Assembly (NCBI RefSeq): GCF_000020525.1
Contig: NC_011026.1
Span: forward strand, 2,586,001 to 2,650,000
Direction: 5' to 3'
Length of the DNA: 64,000 nucleotides
From: Chloroherpeton thalassium ATCC 35110
Lineage (GTDB): Bacteria; Bacteroidota; Chlorobiia; Chlorobiales; Chloroherpetonaceae
This document shows, piece after piece, positions 9,915 to 19,104 of the stretch. The notes under the pieces were generated by a model that worked only from the letters and a program-made list of their open reading frames with translations, did not search any database and was not told the origin of the DNA. How positions within the stretch are numbered: the first letter of the stretch is position 1; each line of letters opens with the position of its first letter. The position numbers and the translations under genes were made by a program.

Positions 9915-10011
9915 GTTTCGAGCGATTTTTCATCGTATGAAATAACGTTAGCCAGCAAGCTGTTATATTTGAAATCGTTCGCTTCTTTTGTCAAGTAAAA
10001 ACAGCAACAAG

Positions 10012-10926
10012 ATGAAAATCGTCAATCCGCTTTACGATAGAGCGTTTAAGTATTTGATGGAAAACGACAAGTTCGCCAAGCGAATATTGTCGGTGATATT
10101 GGACACGGAAGTCGAAGAAGTTGCCTTGGCGCAGCAAGAAACGTTATTTCCCGATGAAAAGCGCCGTTTGACGCTGTTCCGGTTGGATTTCAAAGCGGTG
10201 ATAAAAGAGCCGGATGGCAGCCGAAAAACGGTGTTGATAGAATTGCAAAAATCGAAGTTCTCAACGGATATACAGCGATTTAGAAACTATCTCGGAGCAA
10301 ATTACATTACGAGAGCGAGTCGCAAGGAAGATGGCGAGAATGAGGAGCGGCAAGCGGAATATCACGCGTCGTATCCGATCATCACGATATACTTGTTGGG
10401 ATATAATTTGCAGGACTTGCCGTATATGGCGGTGCGAGTGAATCGGGAAGTAATCAATTCGGTAAGCAAGGAGCGGTTGGAGGTAAAAAGCTTTTTCGTA
10501 GAGCATTTAACGCATGAGTCGCACATTATTCAGGTGAGGCGGTTGCCGGAGAAGCGGCGAACGAGATTGGAGAGATTTTTGACATTGTTTAACCAAAAAT
10601 GGGTAACGGAAGACGGCTACATACTGGACTTGCGCGAGACGCCGGAAGAATTTGCGGACATGGCGGAATATTTGCGAAGTCCGTTGATGGACGATGAGTT
10701 CAGGCGTAACCTGAGAGTGGAGGAAGAAATAGATTTCATATTTGACGAACAGGAAGCGAAGTATTTGAAAAAGATTGCCGAAGCGGAAAAGAAAGCGGAG
10801 GAAGAGCGCATGCAAAAAGAATCCCTTGCGAAAAAGTTAGCGCAACAAATGAAAAAGTTTGGGGCAAGTGAGGAAGAAATTCAAAAGGAAACCGGACTTT
10901 CACGCGAGGAAATTCGAAATTTGTAA
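10012..10926 (+). CDS. Rpn-family PD-(D/E)XK nuclease (transposase-like)
   Basis: This 304-residue protein begins MKIVNPLYDRAFKYLME, the typical start of the Rpn/YhgA-like family (PD-(D/E)XK nuclease family transposase). The ATG at 10012 is preferred over a TTG at 9988 for that reason. The nuclease core is visible as LDFKAVIKE followed by VLIELQKSK (the D and ExQ positions), and RFRNYLGANYITR follows. The C terminus is a charged coiled coil ending in a SEEEIQKETGLSREEIRNL segment seen in multicopy versions of the family. Rpn proteins are DNA endonucleases tied to RecA-independent recombination and are often mobile. I see no terminal inverted repeats or target-site duplication here, so mobility of this copy is unproven. 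Confidence 0.8.
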   Translation: MKIVNPLYDRAFKYLMENDKFAKRILSVILDTEVEEVALAQQETLFPDEKRRLTLFRLDFKAVIKEPDGSRKTVLIELQKSKFSTDIQRFRNYLGANYITRASRKEDGENEERQAEYHASYPIITIYLLGYNLQDLPYMAVRVNREVINSVSKERLEVKSFFVEHLTHESHIIQVRRLPEKRRTRLERFLTLFNQKWVTEDGYILDLRETPEEFADMAEYLRSPLMDDEFRRNLRVEEEIDFIFDEQEAKYLKKIAEAEKKAEEERMQKESLAKKLAQQMKKFGASEEEIQKETGLSREEIRNL

Positions 10927-11064
10927 ATATCAGTATTAATTTGAGAAAAATAGTGCTATTTGTGTGGTGACTTGCGCTGCTGGAAATTTCGTTCCAGCGA
11001 TGTGTTGAAATGATGATTGGTTGAATGATAACATAAGGATCGGCTAAGTTTAATTTTGGAATCC

Positions 11065-13056
11065 ATGAAAAAAAGAAAAGCTCTTCTTCTTGTAATTGCG
11101 GTGATGGTTGCCGTGATGGGCGTTGCCGCTGCTTCAGTGTACATTTTTCGACAAGAGATTAAATTGTTGGTTTTTCAGGCGCTCAGCGAACAAGTTCGGC
11201 TGCGCTATGGATACAAACTCGAGGTCAAAAATGTCGAGATACGCTTCCCCGATGAGGTTGAACTGACAGGTGTTAAACTATTTGATACAAGTCGGGTGAC
11301 TCATCAAGAAAATCAATCCCCGTTGCTGGTTTTTAAAAAAATTAATGTCAAAGTACTAAATCTTTTAAATCCAAAAGAAGCAAGCCGATTGAGTCGCGTT
11401 GTTTTGGATTCAGGATATGTTGATGTTTCTCAATTTGTTGAAAGTTTTGCCAGGCGCGATTCGGCTGCCCATCGTTCAACAGAACAGAATCGGTTTGCAA
11501 AGGTCGAGCATGAAAAGGCGAGCGCGTCAGGTTGGAATCATAAAGTTCGCTCTTTTTATGCCAAGCTCTTTGACTATTTGCCCGATGAAATATGGTTGAA
11601 CAATGTGCGTTGCCGCTATCAAAACCAGTTAAATGAGGTTCAAGCCAACTTGGTTTTTGAATACGCGTTTTTGGTGAGAGGACATTATGAAGTGCTGCTA
11701 AATTTGGAAGACGCATCTTGTGCTGATGAATCCAATTCGGTAGAGATCATTGCGGCGGGAAATCTTCAAAAGAATTCAAAGGAACTTTCAGTAGCCGCGT
11801 ATGTTGAAAAGCCTTTTGCCAGACTGCCATTTATAGAAAAGTTTACCGGTCGGAAAATTTCCTTTGATTCCGTGCGAATCGCGCTTTATCCCAAAATTCT
11901 TGGCGCAGAGCAATCGACGCTTGCAGGATCGATTGATGTAGCCAATTTTTCTATCGATGATAAACGAATGGCATCTCAGCCCATCGAGGTGAAATCGTTC
12001 AGCGCGAACTGCACCGTTTTCCTTGGTGAGCATAGCCTGCGCATTGACTCCAGCACGGTTTGCAAACTAAATCACTTGCCACTGAAGTTTGCCGCGTGGC
12101 TCGATAAGTCAGATTCTTTGAAAGCGGGTTTTCAATTGCAAACCGACACCCTGCCAGCCAATTTGTTTTTTGCTGCTTTACCCGGCGCCATGCTCTCAGA
12201 AATGGACGGATATGATTTTCGTGGGAAGATTGCCTATTCGCTTTTCATGGATATTGATTTCCAACATCTTGAAAATATTGTGTTGAGCCCGAAGGTCTAT
12301 CAATCCAATTTTCAAGTTGCTTCATTGGGTGGGCAAAATAGTTTGAGCAAGCTCCAAAGTGATTTTCTTTATACCGCAAAAAGTGGCGGAAAAGAGGTGC
12401 AAACCATCGATGTAAGTACAAGCAGTCCATTTTATAAGCGACTGGAATCCTTGCCTCCGCATTTAATTTGGGCTGTATTGACCAACGAAGATGGTGCTTT
12501 TTTCCGGCATCATGGTTTTAATACAGACGCTTTTTCCCAGTCCATCGCCGATAATATCCGAGAGCAACGCTTTGCGCGAGGCGGCAGCACAATCACGATG
12601 CAGCTTGTCAAAAATTTGTACTTAACAAAGGAAAAAACGCTCGCCCGTAAGTTTCAGGAAGTGTTGATAACATGGATTTTGGAGAACAGCGGGATTGTCT
12701 CCAAAGAACGAATGTTGGAAATTTATTTCAACATCATTGAGTGGGGGCCTAACGTGTATGGCATTGGCCAAGCATCGTTGTATTACTTCAATAAACTGCC
12801 GTATCAGCTCACGCCGGCGGAGTCGGTGTTTTTAACCAGCATTATTCCAATGCCGAAGTCATTTGCAAGGGCGTTTGATAAAAATGGCCAAGTGACAAAT
12901 GGTTGGAAAAGCAAGATGAAGTTTATCGCAAGTGAGATGTTTCGGCGTGGCTATTTGGAAACCGATGATTTGAACTACGATATCAATCTGTCTGGTCAAG
13001 CGCTCGAAGATTTAAAAAAGGTCAAACAAGGCTACGCAACCATGATGATTTTTTGA
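11065..13056 (+). CDS. AsmA-like / GT51 peptidoglycan transglycosylase
   Basis: This 663-residue protein has one N-terminal membrane anchor (residues 5-27). The ATG at 11065 is used because the in-frame TTG at 11056 only adds three residues. Residues 40-400 look AsmA-like (YKLEVKNVEIRFPDEVELTG and repeated beta segments). Residues about 455-640 are a GT51 transglycosylase with all main motifs: EDGAFFRHHG (E475), GGSTITMQLVKNLYLT, RKFQEVL and MLEIYFNIIEWGPNVYGIG. GT51 enzymes polymerise lipid II into glycan strands; no transpeptidase domain follows, so it is monofunctional. It heads a run of envelope genes leading into the Mla-type transport set. Confidence 0.85.
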   Translation: MKKRKALLLVIAVMVAVMGVAAASVYIFRQEIKLLVFQALSEQVRLRYGYKLEVKNVEIRFPDEVELTGVKLFDTSRVTHQENQSPLLVFKKINVKVLNLLNPKEASRLSRVVLDSGYVDVSQFVESFARRDSAAHRSTEQNRFAKVEHEKASASGWNHKVRSFYAKLFDYLPDEIWLNNVRCRYQNQLNEVQANLVFEYAFLVRGHYEVLLNLEDASCADESNSVEIIAAGNLQKNSKELSVAAYVEKPFARLPFIEKFTGRKISFDSVRIALYPKILGAEQSTLAGSIDVANFSIDDKRMASQPIEVKSFSANCTVFLGEHSLRIDSSTVCKLNHLPLKFAAWLDKSDSLKAGFQLQTDTLPANLFFAALPGAMLSEMDGYDFRGKIAYSLFMDIDFQHLENIVLSPKVYQSNFQVASLGGQNSLSKLQSDFLYTAKSGGKEVQTIDVSTSSPFYKRLESLPPHLIWAVLTNEDGAFFRHHGFNTDAFSQSIADNIREQRFARGGSTITMQLVKNLYLTKEKTLARKFQEVLITWILENSGIVSKERMLEIYFNIIEWGPNVYGIGQASLYYFNKLPYQLTPAESVFLTSIIPMPKSFARAFDKNGQVTNGWKSKMKFIASEMFRRGYLETDDLNYDINLSGQALEDLKKVKQGYATMMIF

Positions 13057-13133: not shown

Positions 13134-13928
13134 GTGTTGGTGGCAGATTCATTTCTTGAGCAGCTCGGGCAAAATGTCCGGTCGTCGCTGCGAGCGTATA
13201 TTACTTTTCTTTCCTTTGCAGCAGCGGTGATTGCAAGCTTTCCAAAGTTTTTTAAGCAAACGCAAGTCGGGTATTTGGTGCTGCTTCGGCAGGTGCTTTT
13301 TACCGGCTATGAAGCGCTTTCGATTGTTGTGCTGATTTCGGTTTCCATCGGGGGGTTGATTATTTTAGAAGGCTATTCAATTCTTGCGAACTTTGGCCAA
13401 AGCGATTTGCTCTATGTCATTTTGGTTTCTGTGATCACGCGAGAACTATCAAATTTACTCACAGCCTTTATTATCGTAGCGCGTTCGGGAACAGCGATTG
13501 CAACCGAGTTGGGAAACATGGTTGTCAATCACGAAATCGATGCCCTGCTTTCCATCGGCATTTCACCTATTTCTTACTTGGTGGTGCCAAGAACCATTGG
13601 GGTGGTGGTCTCGCTTTTGGTTCTGAATGTGTATTTCAACATCACGGGAATTTTGGGTGGCTGGATGGTCTCCAACTGGTTTTATCCGATTGACTTCAAT
13701 GTTTTTTTCTCTAAGCTCTTGGCCAAATTAACTCTGGTCGATATTTCCGCGTCCATTTTGAAATCCATGCTATTTGGTTTTGCAATCGCCATTATTTCGA
13801 GCTTTCATGGACTGCAAGTCAATTTTGCCTCAACCGAAGTCCCGCAAAGAACCATACGGGCGGTTGTGTATTCATTGACCATGGTGGTGATCATTGATGT
13901 TGCGGTTGTGGTATTGATTTATTTATGA
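13134..13928 (+). CDS. mlaE: MlaE-like ABC transporter permease
   Basis: This 264-residue inner-membrane protein has about five hydrophobic segments. It carries the MlaE/YrbE signature (ELGNMVVNHEIDALLSIGIS, then PISYLVVPR). MlaE is the permease of the complex that moves phospholipids between inner and outer membranes. The start is a GTG at 13134; a TTG at 13137 and a GTG at 13140 are alternatives, and no clear ribosome-binding site separates them. An ATPase and an MCE protein follow, completing an MlaEFD-type set, although a terminator-like hairpin separates this gene from the ATPase. Confidence 0.88.
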   Translation: MLVADSFLEQLGQNVRSSLRAYITFLSFAAAVIASFPKFFKQTQVGYLVLLRQVLFTGYEALSIVVLISVSIGGLIILEGYSILANFGQSDLLYVILVSVITRELSNLLTAFIIVARSGTAIATELGNMVVNHEIDALLSIGISPISYLVVPRTIGVVVSLLVLNVYFNITGILGGWMVSNWFYPIDFNVFFSKLLAKLTLVDISASILKSMLFGFAIAIISSFHGLQVNFASTEVPQRTIRAVVYSLTMVVIIDVAVVVLIYL

Positions 13929-13986: not shown

Positions 13987-14017
13987 ATCCGGCTATCGCG
14001 CCGGATTTTCTATTTTT
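13987..14017 (+). terminator. Terminator-like hairpin inside the Mla gene set
   Basis: The arms ATCCGGC (13987-13993) and GCCGGAT (14000-14006) form a seven-base-pair stem with a six-base loop. It is followed by TTTTCTATTTTT, shaped as a Rho-independent terminator, between the permease and ATPase genes. Confidence 0.7.
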
Positions 14018-14055: not shown

Positions 14056-14775
14056 ATGGCAATAATTCGATTTGACAATGTTACGTTTCGACAAAATGGC
14101 AAACCTATCATAGAGGATTTTTCTTTTACCTTCCCGGAAGGAGAGCTAACGCTTCTTTTGGGGCCGGCAGGTTCAGGAAAAGGGCTCATTTTGAAAATGA
14201 TTGCTGGGATTGTTGAGCCAGATGACGGGCAGGTGCTTTGCGACGGTGCCGATGTCTTCTCAGGATCGGATGACGAAATAAAACGCATTCGTGCAAAAAT
14301 ATCCTATCTGTTCAGGAGCGGCGGATTGATTTCAAACCTAACAATTAAAGAAAATTTATTGCTACCCCTTGATTTTCATTTTCCTGAAATCCTAAAACAG
14401 GAAAAAAGGCAAATGATCGATAACTACTTGAATGAATTTGGCATTTTATCTTCCAAAGAAAAGCGTCCTGCGGATGTGTCGCGATCGATTTGTAAACAAG
14501 TTGGATTGATCCGATCGCTCATTATTCAATCAAAAATTATGCTATTTGATGAACCTTTTTATGACTGTGATATTAGAGGAAAGCTTTTAATCCAGCATCA
14601 AATTGAGCGAAATAAGAAGAATAAAATTACGCAAATTATACTGACTCAGTCAACTGAAAATCTTATCGAATTTGCGGATTGGATTATGATTTTTGAGAAT
14701 GGAAAAGTGCAAGAAATGAATCGCCGAGATGAAATTTTAAACTCCGATAACTCGATAACTAAATTTTATTTGTAG
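14056..14775 (+). CDS. mlaF: MlaF-like ABC ATPase with degenerate motifs
   Basis: This 239-residue protein has the ABC ATPase fold and lies between an MlaE-like permease and an MCE protein, so it should be the ATPase of that transporter. Several catalytic motifs are altered. The Walker A is G36-PAGSGKG-43 with glycine where Ser/Thr binds magnesium. The Q-loop position holds R87 (YLFRSGG). The LSGGQ signature is replaced by VSRSICKQ (141-148). The H-loop histidine is Q198 (LTQST). Walker B (LFDEP, D165-E166) is intact. Either this lineage uses a weak or structural ATPase, or another ATPase energises the complex. The gene ends nine bases before mlaD. Confidence 0.85.
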   Translation: MAIIRFDNVTFRQNGKPIIEDFSFTFPEGELTLLLGPAGSGKGLILKMIAGIVEPDDGQVLCDGADVFSGSDDEIKRIRAKISYLFRSGGLISNLTIKENLLLPLDFHFPEILKQEKRQMIDNYLNEFGILSSKEKRPADVSRSICKQVGLIRSLIIQSKIMLFDEPFYDCDIRGKLLIQHQIERNKKNKITQIILTQSTENLIEFADWIMIFENGKVQEMNRRDEILNSDNSITKFYL

Positions 14776-14783
14776 AGGTCAAA

Positions 14784-15860
14784 ATGAAATTTAAGTTTAA
14801 ATACACGGATAAAATTGTTGGAGGGTTTGTTTTAACTGCGCTATTAACAGTTGTTTTTATCGCAATTATTGTAGCAATAAACAACAAAGTTTTCGTCAAA
14901 AAGTATGTGTTTAAAACCCAATTCACCGATGCAGTAGGTCTGACTACCACCACGCCAATTATCTTCAAAGGATTTGAAATAGGCCGAATTCGCAGTTATA
15001 AGTTGAATGAGCGTGACATGATCGATGCGGATTTTGAGATTTATGAAGAATATCGAGATCGGATTAAAACAAATACTGTGCTTCATAAAGCAAGGAATAT
15101 TTTAGGTGGTTCTACAACAATTAACTTGTTTCAAGGAGAGGTTCAGGGAAAGTTAACTGAGGAAAAAGGTTTTGTCCCATCTCTAAATACAATGGAAGGA
15201 AATGAACGAATAGAACAATATAAAATTAAGATGAGTGGTGATGCAATTGCATCCGTTTTGGCTAATTTTGATAACCTGCTTTACAAATTAACCAATGAAA
15301 ATAACTATGAAAAAAGCGCACTTTTTAAGACATTAGATAATTTTTCATTGGCATCTGAACAGCTTGTTTATTTATTAACAGATGTAGAAAAAATTGTTAA
15401 AAAATTAGAAGCTGATCCACAATTAAAAGGCGGTGGAACGTTGGTATCTGCAGTTCAAAATATAAGCAATTTGACCCAAGAGGCAGCCGTAACGATCAAC
15501 CAATTAAACCACACGCTTGCGCTAACGGATTCTCTTCTTTTGGCATATAAAAATCCTGATGGACTTGTTAGGAAAATGGTTGATCCAACCGGAGAAGAGA
15601 TTTTTAAACCGTTAGATAAATCTCTTCAGGAGATGGCAGGGAGCTTGGACAAATTGAATCGGCTGCTGTCATATATCGACGCAAAGACGCCGGAAACGCT
15701 GATTTTGGTTGATGAAGCCAAAGCCACCTTAAAGCAGACTCGCCGAACGATGGAAGGCATCAGCAATAATCCGTTCATTCGTGGCGGCATTACGCCTGAG
15801 CGCGTGGTTGAACCTGCGGGCGAAAAGGTGCGAATGAACATTAACGAAGTGATAGAGTGA
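14784..15860 (+). CDS. mlaD: MlaD/MCE-family lipid-binding protein
   Basis: This 358-residue protein is anchored by one N-terminal transmembrane helix (residues 13-35). It carries a single MCE domain (about 40-125; FTDAVGLTTTTPIIFKGFEI, then ARNILGGSTTINL). A long, mostly helical tail follows (about 150-330), as in MCE proteins that hexamerise into a periplasmic lipid channel. A short spacing after the ATPase and the overlap of its stop with the next start indicate one transcript. The length exceeds E. coli MlaD because of the extended tail. Confidence 0.88.
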   Translation: MKFKFKYTDKIVGGFVLTALLTVVFIAIIVAINNKVFVKKYVFKTQFTDAVGLTTTTPIIFKGFEIGRIRSYKLNERDMIDADFEIYEEYRDRIKTNTVLHKARNILGGSTTINLFQGEVQGKLTEEKGFVPSLNTMEGNERIEQYKIKMSGDAIASVLANFDNLLYKLTNENNYEKSALFKTLDNFSLASEQLVYLLTDVEKIVKKLEADPQLKGGGTLVSAVQNISNLTQEAAVTINQLNHTLALTDSLLLAYKNPDGLVRKMVDPTGEEIFKPLDKSLQEMAGSLDKLNRLLSYIDAKTPETLILVDEAKATLKQTRRTMEGISNNPFIRGGITPERVVEPAGEKVRMNINEVIE

Positions 15861-16738
15861 TGCGAATTTTTTTGACGTTGCTATTTCTCACGGTCTCACT
15901 ATTGGGTTGTTCCTCTTTGCCTAACAGAAACGCCGTGTTGCCAAAAGAAGTGGCGAGCGGCATGGAACTATTGCGTCAGGCAAGGCTCAACGCGCGAATG
16001 AATCAGCAAGAGATCGCATGCTTGAATGCTGAAAAAGCCTATCAATACTTTGTGCTCGCCGATGATTTGGAAGGGATTTTTTACGCCAATTTGGAATTGG
16101 CAAAACTCCGCCGTAAGTCCAATCCCGAAGAAAGCCTGGCCTATCTTCAAAGTGCAGGGAAAATCGCTGAAGTGTTTAAGCCTGCGCTCAGGCCGGTTTA
16201 TCAGTTGCGACTTGCGGAGCTCAAATTTTTGGAAAATGACTTTGCTCAAACGCTTTCGTTGATGAAAAATCTTGAGTTCGATGAAGAATCCGACATATTC
16301 GCATCGGAGGCGCTTGCTTATAAAATAATGGCCACGCTTAAGTTGAAAATGGGCGCAAATAAGGAATCGGTGCGCGAGGCGGCAAAAAATCTCCAAAGAC
16401 TTTATCAACGCCTCAAAGACCGCTACGACGATTATGAATTGAAAGATCCGGAGAGCATTAGTTTTTCGGCTTATGTTTTGGGGCTTGTGGCTGCGTCGGA
16501 GAAATCCTGGTCTGAAGCGGAGAAGTGGTTTTTGGCAGCGTGGGAAATCGATCGCCAAATTAGCAATTACAACGGCACAGCGGAAAATCTGTATAGCTTG
16601 GGCGTGGTGAATCGGTCGCTTGGAAACCATGCTGCCGCGTTAGGCTTTTTTGAGCGTGCGGCCAGGATTTTTGAGATTTTGAAAAACGCAGATCGTCTTG
16701 CGGCTTGCAAGGCGCAGCTGCAAGCATTGCCGGAATAA
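15860..16738 (+). CDS. TPR-like lipoprotein of the Mla cluster
   Basis: This 292-residue protein begins with a lipoprotein signal (FLTVSLLGC, lipobox cysteine at about residue 17). The body is entirely helical with repeated A/L/Y-rich pairs (NLELAKLRRKSNPEESLAYL, YSLGVVNRSLGNHAAALGFF) resembling tetratricopeptide repeats. The ATG at 15860 shares bases with the mlaD stop (TGATG); a GTG one codon earlier is possible. Its position suggests an outer-membrane lipoprotein that works with the MCE transporter. I do not recognise a named family. Confidence 0.75.
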   Translation: MRIFLTLLFLTVSLLGCSSLPNRNAVLPKEVASGMELLRQARLNARMNQQEIACLNAEKAYQYFVLADDLEGIFYANLELAKLRRKSNPEESLAYLQSAGKIAEVFKPALRPVYQLRLAELKFLENDFAQTLSLMKNLEFDEESDIFASEALAYKIMATLKLKMGANKESVREAAKNLQRLYQRLKDRYDDYELKDPESISFSAYVLGLVAASEKSWSEAEKWFLAAWEIDRQISNYNGTAENLYSLGVVNRSLGNHAAALGFFERAARIFEILKNADRLAACKAQLQALPE

Positions 16739-16893
16739 AAAAACGCAGTTGCCCTGCGCGCAATTGGCAAAAAAATTTTGAAAAGCATTTCCCAAAAAGA
16801 GGGCTTTGTTCAAGAGTTTTTTTATCCCTAAGTTTAACTGTAACTATTAATTATACACAGCATACTTTTATTCATTTCTTAAAAAGAAAAGCC

Positions 16894-18024
16894 ATGCGAA
16901 AGAATGCAAGGAATCAAAAGTGGCTTTGGTTTTATGTATTGGCCACGCTTTTTATCAGTGCGGGATGTCAGCCTGAGCATCGCATCAAGCTCGAGTCTAT
17001 GCCAAGCGGCATTGAATTTACAGGCGATCTCGAAGGAAAATTTCGATTTGACGCTGAGCAAAAAAATCTTATGGTGAAGGGTGAGGTTTCCGAAGCCCAG
17101 CGCGATGCACTTCTGAAGTTGTCCGATGATGCCGCCTATCAGCGTGCGGTTTGGTCGCTCTTTGAATGGAATCAAGAAGGGGAGACCGCAACAAAAGGTT
17201 ACATCTCGGTAGTGGCTGAAAAGAAAATAGCGGAGCTGATGGATTCGGTTGGCGTTGATTTTATGAAATACTATGAGAAAAATAAATCTCAGGTGAAAAC
17301 CCTCACAGCCGAAACAAACGAGGAGGCTGTGCAAAAGCTGCTGAATGAGGAAGTTCGCATCGCCTATATTTCGCGTCAGCTTACGCAAGAGGAACTCGAG
17401 CAGTTTAAAGCGAAGGGTTTCGACATGTCTCAAATATTGGTGGTTCGCGATGCTGTTTGTTTGATCACGAATCCAAAAAATGAGGTAACAACCATGAAAG
17501 TTTCGCAGCTCAAAGATGTGCTAAGTGGCAAAATTACCAATTGGAAAGAGCTGGGCGGAAAAGATATGCCTATCAAGTTTTACACCAATAAAGAAAGCGA
17601 AATGCTGCGTGAGGTCATTACTGATTCTTTGATGGACGGAACGGATTTTTCATTGCAGCCGGAAAGCTTGCCATCGTATCGGGAGCTTTGGCAAAAAATA
17701 AAAACCGAAGAAGGCGCGCTGGCTTATACAAGCCGCCGCTACGCTTATCGTGCCTTGCACAATAAAAAGGCCTTCCGCGACACGACCAGCTACAAAGTGA
17801 TGGGACTCATGGCCGACACCACCGACGCCGAAAGCATTGCGCCCTACATGTACTTTGTGTATAAAGATTTATATCCACTGAATTATGATATTTACAGCGT
17901 TTTTGAACGCTATGAAGATTTGGCGATGGGCTATTCGGCCTTCTCAACTGGGCCGGAAGGCAATCCTGTTTTTCGGCGCAATGGATTAATGCCGATGCAA
18001 GTCAAAGTGTATCTAAATTATTAA
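16894..18024 (+). CDS. PstS-like substrate-binding lipoprotein (first of two)
   Basis: From the ATG at 16894 this encodes 376 residues. The frame is open farther upstream, but the lipoprotein signal (LATLFISAGC) fixes the start. A roughly 80-residue N-terminal insert precedes a PBP-like domain with PstS hallmarks: RDAVCLITNPKNEVTTMK and LKDVLSGKITNWKELGGKD. Such proteins bind phosphate or related oxyanions at the membrane. No pst permease or ATPase is adjacent, and a terminator follows. It is a paralogue of the next gene, with similar spacing of the NWxxxGGK block and the C-terminal RNG motif. Confidence 0.78.
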   Translation: MRKNARNQKWLWFYVLATLFISAGCQPEHRIKLESMPSGIEFTGDLEGKFRFDAEQKNLMVKGEVSEAQRDALLKLSDDAAYQRAVWSLFEWNQEGETATKGYISVVAEKKIAELMDSVGVDFMKYYEKNKSQVKTLTAETNEEAVQKLLNEEVRIAYISRQLTQEELEQFKAKGFDMSQILVVRDAVCLITNPKNEVTTMKVSQLKDVLSGKITNWKELGGKDMPIKFYTNKESEMLREVITDSLMDGTDFSLQPESLPSYRELWQKIKTEEGALAYTSRRYAYRALHNKKAFRDTTSYKVMGLMADTTDAESIAPYMYFVYKDLYPLNYDIYSVFERYEDLAMGYSAFSTGPEGNPVFRRNGLMPMQVKVYLNY

Positions 18025-18089
18025 ACTTTTCGCATCTATTTGCCAGAAAAGGCTTCCAATCAAATAAGTAGAGAAAAGTTTTTATATTC

Positions 18090-18117
18090 AGGCCGGTTTT
18101 TCCGGCCTAATTTTTTT
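18090..18117 (+). terminator. Rho-independent terminator between the two PstS-like genes
   Basis: A seven-base-pair G+C-rich stem, AGGCCGG/CCGGCCT, with a five-T loop is followed by AA and seven T. It lies inside the longest open frame of the next gene, which argues that that gene starts downstream at 18145. Confidence 0.92.
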
Positions 18118-18144
18118 GAAGATTTAAAACGACTTCCGGTTAAG

Positions 18145-19104
18145 ATGAAAAGAAATAAACTTGTTTTTTGGCTCGTTCTGCTCGGATTTTCAGCCACAGC
18201 CATGATGACAAAAGGGTGCAGCTGTTTGAACCAGGCAAACAAGGACGTGCTGACAGAGGAAAGTGAAACGCCGACAAGTGGGCATCTGAAAGTCGCCACA
18301 GATGATGCGCTGGCGCCCGTGATCCAAAAGCAAATAGATGAGTTTTCAAGGATTTATCCCAAAGCCAAATTCGATTTAGTGGAAAACTCAACGCGCAAAG
18401 TGGTGGAAATGCTGCTCAATAAAGATGTTCGCGCTGTGGTGTTCAGTTATAAGCTTTCTGCGAAGGAGGATTCCGTTATAAATGCGCTGGGGTTGCATGT
18501 GAAAAAAGATTTGGTCGCGCGCGATGCACTTTGCCTGATTGTAAATGCAAAGAATCCTGTCAAATCGCTGAGCATGAATCAATTGAAATTGATTTTGAGC
18601 GGTGAGGCTGAAAATTGGTCGCTTTTTGGCGGAAAGAATCAGCCGATTCAGGTTTTTTATACCTCGCCTAACGATGCCAGAAATATGTATTTAAGGGATA
18701 CCTTGCGCATTAGCCAATTTGCGGCGAAGGCGTATCCTTGCACGAGTGCGGCGCAAATGCGCGAGTTTGTCACGAAATATGAGAGCGCAATTGGCTACGA
18801 GAGCATTTCGAATTTGCGCGATTTAACCGACCCAGATAGAGCGGGCGAGCAGACAGAAATAAAGTTACTTTCGGTTTCCGCCGATAGCGTTGGCGCAAAA
18901 GCGTACTTGCCGCTTCAATCGCATGTCTATGAAGGCTACTATCCTTTGACCTACGGGGTTTACCATTTGTATTACGAGTTTGAGCGATTGCCGCAGGGCT
19001 TTGCCGCGTTCCTCTCGCGTGAAGGTCAGAAGATGTTCCTGCGAAACGGCGTCGCCCCGATTGAAAATCCCGTTAGAATTATCTATTTCAAACAGGATGA
19101 GTAA
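18145..19104 (+). CDS. PstS-like substrate-binding lipoprotein (second of two)
   Basis: This 319-residue lipoprotein has a signal with TMMTKGC. The ATG at 18145 is chosen because the longer frame from 18040 would span a terminator and place residues before the signal peptide. The body matches PstS-type binding proteins: GHLKVATDDALAPVIQKQI, RDALCLIVNAKNPVKSLSM, LKLILSGEAENWSLFGGKN. It ends with an FLRNGVAP motif. It is more compact than the preceding paralogue and lacks its N-terminal insert. Ligand and partner transporter cannot be told from sequence. Confidence 0.8.
   Translation: MKRNKLVFWLVLLGFSATAMMTKGCSCLNQANKDVLTEESETPTSGHLKVATDDALAPVIQKQIDEFSRIYPKAKFDLVENSTRKVVEMLLNKDVRAVVFSYKLSAKEDSVINALGLHVKKDLVARDALCLIVNAKNPVKSLSMNQLKLILSGEAENWSLFGGKNQPIQVFYTSPNDARNMYLRDTLRISQFAAKAYPCTSAAQMREFVTKYESAIGYESISNLRDLTDPDRAGEQTEIKLLSVSADSVGAKAYLPLQSHVYEGYYPLTYGVYHLYYEFERLPQGFAAFLSREGQKMFLRNGVAPIENPVRIIYFKQDE

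Follow-up and report, generated by a model that had tools for sequence, protein, structure and literature searches.

The window, a stretch of 64,000 nucleotides from the complete, 3,293,456-base genome of Chloroherpeton thalassium ATCC 35110, contained four genes that, with a somewhat better than even chance, form an MCE lipid-transport cassette whose nucleotide-binding domain (NBD) is a pseudo-ATPase scaffold without hydrolysis of its own. Open-reading-frame calls and Pfam searches identified, all in one direction, genes for an MlaE-type permease (MlaE*), an ATPase-like subunit (MlaF*), an MCE protein (MCE*) and a TPR protein. A cassette with the same worn-out motor was found to be conserved across five or more phyla of bacteria, and it probably moves lipids without its own use of ATP.

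MlaE* (13134-13928, + strand; 264 amino acids) was assigned to a divergent subfamily of MlaE-type permeases (PF02405, 3.5e-59, 200 bits), and its conserved polar residues were present. MlaF* (14056-14775, + strand), a degenerate ABC ATPase subunit of 239 amino acids, was encoded by one open frame with an ATG start (PF00005, 6.3e-25, 88.8 bits against a cut-off of 25). The preliminary description had placed this subunit at 14161-14652, an interval that spans Walker A to the H-loop, whereas the gene is longer. MCE* (14784-15860, + strand), an MlaD-like protein of 358 amino acids, combined one MCE domain (PF02470, 4.9e-10, 40 bits against 25.1) with a long C-terminal part. The fourth gene (15857-16738, + strand) encoded the TPR protein (PF13424, 3.3e-11), with a lipobox-like N-terminus (LLGCSS). 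The ATPase-like, MCE and TPR genes were no more than 8 bases apart or overlapped. Inside the 127-base gap between the MlaE* and MlaF* genes, a terminator-like hairpin with a T-rich tail (13987-14006, + strand) possibly sets the relative expression of these two genes. Their reading frames overlap in G001, a genome from another genus of the same family.

Further genes surrounded the cassette. Immediately upstream of MlaE*, the gene at 11056-13056 (+ strand) encoded a C-terminal transglycosylase domain (PF00912) and a long N-terminal part that appeared AsmA-like by eye; it did not occupy this position in G001 or in G009, a genome from another family of the order. A 312-amino-acid open reading frame at 9988-10926 (+ strand), for which no Pfam match was obtained, resembled by eye Rpn-family or transposase-related nucleases. 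Downstream, 16705-18024 and 18040-19104 (both + strand) encoded two consecutive PBP_like_2 (phosphate-binding-like) proteins, and a gene related to these also follows the cassette in G001 (L040 9394-10512).

Both fold and profile identified MlaF* as an ABC transporter NBD (ABC_tran). In an alignment with the canonical MlaF of the same genome, read by eye, MlaF* retained 5 of 10 diagnostic residues. Its Walker A motif (GPAGSGKGL, 14161-14187, + strand) kept Lys42 and carried Gly43 instead of Ser/Thr, the Gln of the Q-loop was replaced by Arg87 (LFRSGG; 14314-14316, + strand), VSRSI (residues 141-145; 14476-14490, + strand) stood in place of the LSGGQ signature, and the His of the H-loop was replaced by Gln198 (ILTQS; 14647-14649, + strand). 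Walker B (FDEP; 14536-14556, + strand) was kept at D165-E166-P167, including the catalytic Glu. The alignment thus bore out each item of the preliminary description, which had listed four altered motifs (GKG, R87, VSRSI, Q198) beside an intact Walker B. Since MlaF* lacked the Walker A, Q-loop, signature and H-loop residues that mark an active ABC ATPase, it was not classed as one; with the Walker A Lys and Walker B Glu still in place, some nucleotide binding is possible. In E. coli, complementation is lost in the MlaF variants Lys47Ala and Glu170Gln, mutants of Walker A and Walker B (PMC7367683), which indicates that canonical Mla should not work with an MlaF*-like subunit. The motif loss is not a matter of chance, because all 14 NBDs that adjoin canonical MlaE proteins in the same phylum kept 9-10 of the 10 key residues.

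The MlaF* orthologue of G001 (L002) showed 43% identity in an unchanged gene order, and GSGKI, IFR, LTRSE and SQS stood at the positions of the altered motifs. That of G009 (L003) showed 36% identity and carried DADGDSETE, LPRRL and SSS; no recognisable Walker A was found in its alignment. MCE* orthologues showed 44-50% identity. Occurrence in the class was sparse, with the MCE protein of the cassette in 3 of 98 genomes and the cassette in 3 of 9 genera. The preliminary description had held that canonical motifs in close homologues would speak for decay in this genome. Such homologues were looked for and did not turn up: the motifs were altered in the close cassette homologues too, and distant ones varied in the extent of loss. 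Its proposal that the NBD of this MCE transporter does not hydrolyse ATP, while the partner proteins are intact, is, at the level of sequence, well supported. The overall interpretation held in part, and did not yet include the permease subfamily, the fourth gene or the phylogenetic breadth. A local pseudogene or a sequencing error was rejected in view of conservation in relatives, purifying selection and a high-confidence fold.

Relatives of the permease were collected by a search that took one genome for each species, and from a phylum sample; the nearest relative found was a metagenome-assembled genome (MAG) of the Chloroherpetonaceae. In the phylum sample, E-values rose abruptly from about 3e-79 for the MlaE* subfamily to 4e-42 for ordinary MlaE. 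The subfamily comprised 92 sequences from Spirochaetota, Cloacimonadota, Nitrospirota, Chlorobiota/Ignavibacteriota and Myxococcota. In a tree of 111 permeases it was monophyletic, on one side of a branch with an SH-aLRT of 99, and the value was again 99 once E. coli MlaE was added; this clade test is limited by a canonical sample drawn mostly from Bacteroidota. E104 and K210 occurred in 100% of the rows compared. The cytoplasmic loop of MlaE* reads EVP, against a conserved GVG in canonical MlaE: Pro237 of its TEVP sequence corresponds to Gly in all 40 canonical sequences compared. Treponema species (L091, L107) carry the MlaE*/MlaF* cassette; a published survey lists Treponema among the lineages without Mla (PMC10665443).

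A residue-by-residue count covered 87 distinct NBDs encoded beside permeases of the subfamily, and only 2 of these retained the first Gly of LSGGQ. The other residues were lost to different extents. Of the 46 Spirochaetota NBDs, 43 retained the Walker A Lys, all 46 the Ser/Thr, 26 the catalytic Glu and 25 the His. Many spirochaetal members still held Walker A, the Q-loop and sometimes Glu and His, and nucleotide binding or slow hydrolysis may therefore persist there. Among Nitrospirota, the catalytic Glu, the signature Ser and the His were each retained in 0 of 12 NBDs; among Cloacimonadota, Walker A Lys and His in 0 of 13 each; and of 15 Chlorobiota/Ignavibacteriota NBDs, 6 retained the Lys and 1 the His. 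Cloacimonadota and most Chlorobiota/Ignavibacteriota had lost the greater part of the ATP site; Cloacimonadota and several Ignavibacteriota members had no Walker A at all, with the rest of the cassette the same. Parsimony on the permease tree required minima of 11 changes for the catalytic Glu, 7 for the His, 4 for the Lys and 3 for the first signature Gly. This pattern suggests that the signature was altered early and that the ATP site was then eroded repeatedly, probably starting from a spirochaetal-like state.

These counts bear on two readings in which MlaF* still handles nucleotide. As a nucleotide-dependent switch on the conduit, MlaF* would bind without hydrolysing, a role consistent with the Walker A Lys and Walker B Asp-Glu of the window protein and with the spirochaetal Walker A counts; we regard it as quite unlikely, since an otherwise identical cassette occurs in the lineages that lack any Walker A. 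Slow ATP hydrolysis via an unusual site could draw on the catalytic Glu and Lys of the window protein and on the spirochaetal Glu and His, but MlaF* has lost Ser/Thr, Gln, signature and His jointly, and sister lineages have lost the site altogether, which makes this reading very improbable.

Structure prediction for the window MlaF* yielded a model with a mean pLDDT of 96.2, whose best fold matches were Mce1 ATPase and MlaF structures, with a TM-score of about 0.9 to the latter. Among solved structures, the best sequence match was Acinetobacter MlaF (6.4e-30). A 215-residue Cloacimonadota member without Walker A was modelled with a mean pLDDT of 95.0. The models suggest that the degenerate NBDs still fold. 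For the origin of MlaF*, MlaF and FtsE/LolD-like NBDs were compared. The NBD tree contained an MlaF clade (97/91) without MlaF*, and a grouping of MlaF* with MlaF was not rejected (AU p 0.56). The NCBIfam MlaF model gave MlaF* 105 bits against a cut-off of 441 and the canonical MlaF of the genome only 185 bits; the best NCBIfam match of one spirochaetal member was FtsE.

MlaF* was under purifying selection. Among pairs with dS < 1, NBD dN/dS was 0.04-0.23, mostly above that of the adjoining permease; pairs with dS above about 1 were unreliable and were left out of this range. In two pairs of close genomes, dN/dS was 0.04-0.05 for MlaF* and 0.017-0.022 for canonical MlaF, with canonical dS > 1 in one of them. 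Relaxed decay of a redundant system on its way to loss would fit the faster divergence of MlaF* (43% identity between this genome and G001, versus 78% for canonical MlaF) and the restriction of the cassette to a minority of genera in the class. This explanation was scarcely credible, since the frames are open, dN/dS stays far below 1 in all lineages compared, the permease, MCE and TPR genes are intact, and the cassette is retained across phyla.

Conservation was below 50% at the Walker A residues of 19 strongly degenerate NBDs. In the same NBDs, G89, S93, N94, L95, E99, N100, L103 and P104 were kept at 84-100%, as were R137, P138, K147 and R153. The best-conserved part was the segment of residues 89-104 (GGLISNLTIKENLLLP; 14320-14367, + strand), just past the Q-loop. 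In ABC architecture, the segment past the Q-loop contacts the coupling helix of the permease. By analogy, residues 89-104 would form the docking surface, and MlaF* keeps this putative permease-docking segment.

A second MlaF-like gene, which the preliminary description had proposed to look for, was present in the genome. In all, C. thalassium encoded three MlaE, three MlaF-like (two canonical MlaF and MlaF*) and three MCE proteins. One canonical MlaEFD locus lay near 1855 kb, and the remaining set appeared dispersed, with MlaE near 1144 kb, MCE near 1733 kb (L038 4383-5270) and an unlinked canonical MlaF near 359 kb (358781-359512; L185 3722-4510). Genomes of Chlorobiota/Ignavibacteriota repeatedly encode a further MlaE that has no ATPase gene next to it (L032, L155-L164); in this genome, the unlinked canonical MlaF and the unlinked MCE gene may complete it. 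Three or four MlaE, one of them without an adjacent ATPase gene, were encoded in the related genomes G001, G009, G098, G102, G106, G110, G148, G324, G236 and G377.

These genes raise the alternative, already suggested in the preliminary description as pairing with a second ATPase, that MlaE* is powered in trans by a canonical MlaF encoded at another locus. That subunit would act by itself or in a heterodimer with MlaF*, whose role would be that of a regulator or placeholder. Mycobacterial Mce systems, which share an ATPase, provide a precedent. In this genome the MlaEFD locus and the unlinked gene could each supply such a subunit; three MlaE occurred in 8 of 8 Cloacimonadota genomes examined, and at least one further MlaE accompanied the strongly degenerate cassette in every genome counted. 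Four spirochaetal genomes encoded only an MlaE of the subfamily, with milder motif changes. This comparison of MlaE number with degeneracy is confounded by phylogeny, and several of the genomes are MAGs. Against supply in trans, NBDs are as many as permeases in C. thalassium, so that each permease may have a partner of its own, and the MlaE* loop carries EVP instead of the canonical GVG. A heterodimer, unlike known asymmetric ABC pairs, would moreover be damaged at both composite sites, because MlaF* lacks the Walker A Ser/Thr and the H-loop His for one and LSGGQ for the other. Supply in trans was therefore considered rather unlikely. When the flanks were searched with profiles for a further NBD belonging to the cassette, additional NBD genes turned up in only a few loci and were not conserved, and this candidate was rejected.

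In 64 loci from the different phyla, the TPR gene followed the MCE gene and in no case preceded it, and a lipobox-like motif was found in 51 of 65 TPR proteins. Pfam TPR repeats were detected in members of several phyla, with a Cloacimonadota member below the curated cut-off. TPR repeats can be alike by chance, and shared position is thus the stronger evidence. The TPR protein appears to be a conserved fourth component of the cassette and is often a predicted lipoprotein. In 19 loci, of which those inspected were spirochaetal, a further conserved, secreted-looking protein was encoded downstream of the TPR gene (L051 9002-9907, L054 8486-9823, L056 4071-5021), and in 14 loci a second further protein came after it. 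Upstream of the cassette, eight loci encoded a conserved small protein (e.g. L046 3565-4197, L060 1850-2488, L100 1211-1849), which we take to resemble a cobalamin-binding regulatory domain.

A pseudo-ATPase as the structural base of a non-cycling lipid conduit is the most economical reading of these sequences. In the proposed mechanism, two MlaF* subunits would sit under an MlaE* dimer as this base, and in strongly degenerate lineages, including C. thalassium, the complex would run no hydrolysis cycle. The MCE hexamer would form the tunnel of a conduit between inner and outer membrane, with the TPR lipoprotein probably as its outer-membrane or periplasmic partner. Lipid would move passively down its gradient or draw on some other source of energy; passive flow was arrived at by elimination. 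In canonical Mla, transfer from MlaD to MlaC is reported to be ATP-independent and to be prevented by hydrolysis (PMC10212509), and PqiA and LetA have no ATPase domain (PMC12436622).

The cassette shares with MlaFEDB of E. coli, Pseudomonas and Acinetobacter an MlaE-family permease, an MCE protein and an NBD fold nearest to MlaF/Mce1 ATPase. It differs in an NBD without the catalytic motifs that Mla needs, a permease in a separate clade, the gene order E-F-D, the lack of MlaB and MlaC, and the TPR protein as fourth gene. Veillonella and most diderms have a minimal MlaEFD system (PMC10665443), with the same three-gene E-F-D core and a long MCE protein; there, however, MlaF is described as close to that of model diderms, and the available text does not mention a TPR protein. 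Brucella Mpc (MpcEFDA, PMC12436622) likewise combines permease, ATPase, MCE protein and outer-membrane lipoprotein, but its ABC part is described as well conserved and its lipoprotein is PqiC-like rather than TPR. PqiABC and LetAB also form MCE lipid conduits and contain no ATPase domain themselves, with PqiC as lipoprotein partner; their inner-membrane proteins, in contrast, are not of the ABC permease type and come without an NBD. Asymmetric ABC proteins such as CFTR, TAP and PatAB have lost NBD catalytic residues and retained function, but they keep one canonical site. Degenerate MlaF* is the only NBD of the cassette, and its homodimer would therefore have no canonical site.

Judged by its sequences, the cassette would work within the Mla/MCE kind, as a new variation on it. 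A literature search, which was incomplete, found no description of an MlaE*/MlaF* family. Within the same limits and to our knowledge, this may be the first ABC system of wide conservation in which the sole NBD encoded is a pseudo-ATPase. We give an even chance to the wider proposal that five or more phyla share a transporter family with ABC architecture whose paired NBDs form a pseudo-ATPase, whose MCE lipid flow is hydrolysis-free and whose ATP site was eroded repeatedly from an ATP-binding ancestor. The role of ATP hydrolysis and the direction of lipid movement in Mla-type transport are disputed, and a dead MlaF abolishes function in E. coli. Stepwise loss of the ATP site, with permease, MCE protein and putative docking segment kept, offers a direct test of an ATP-free MCE conduit.
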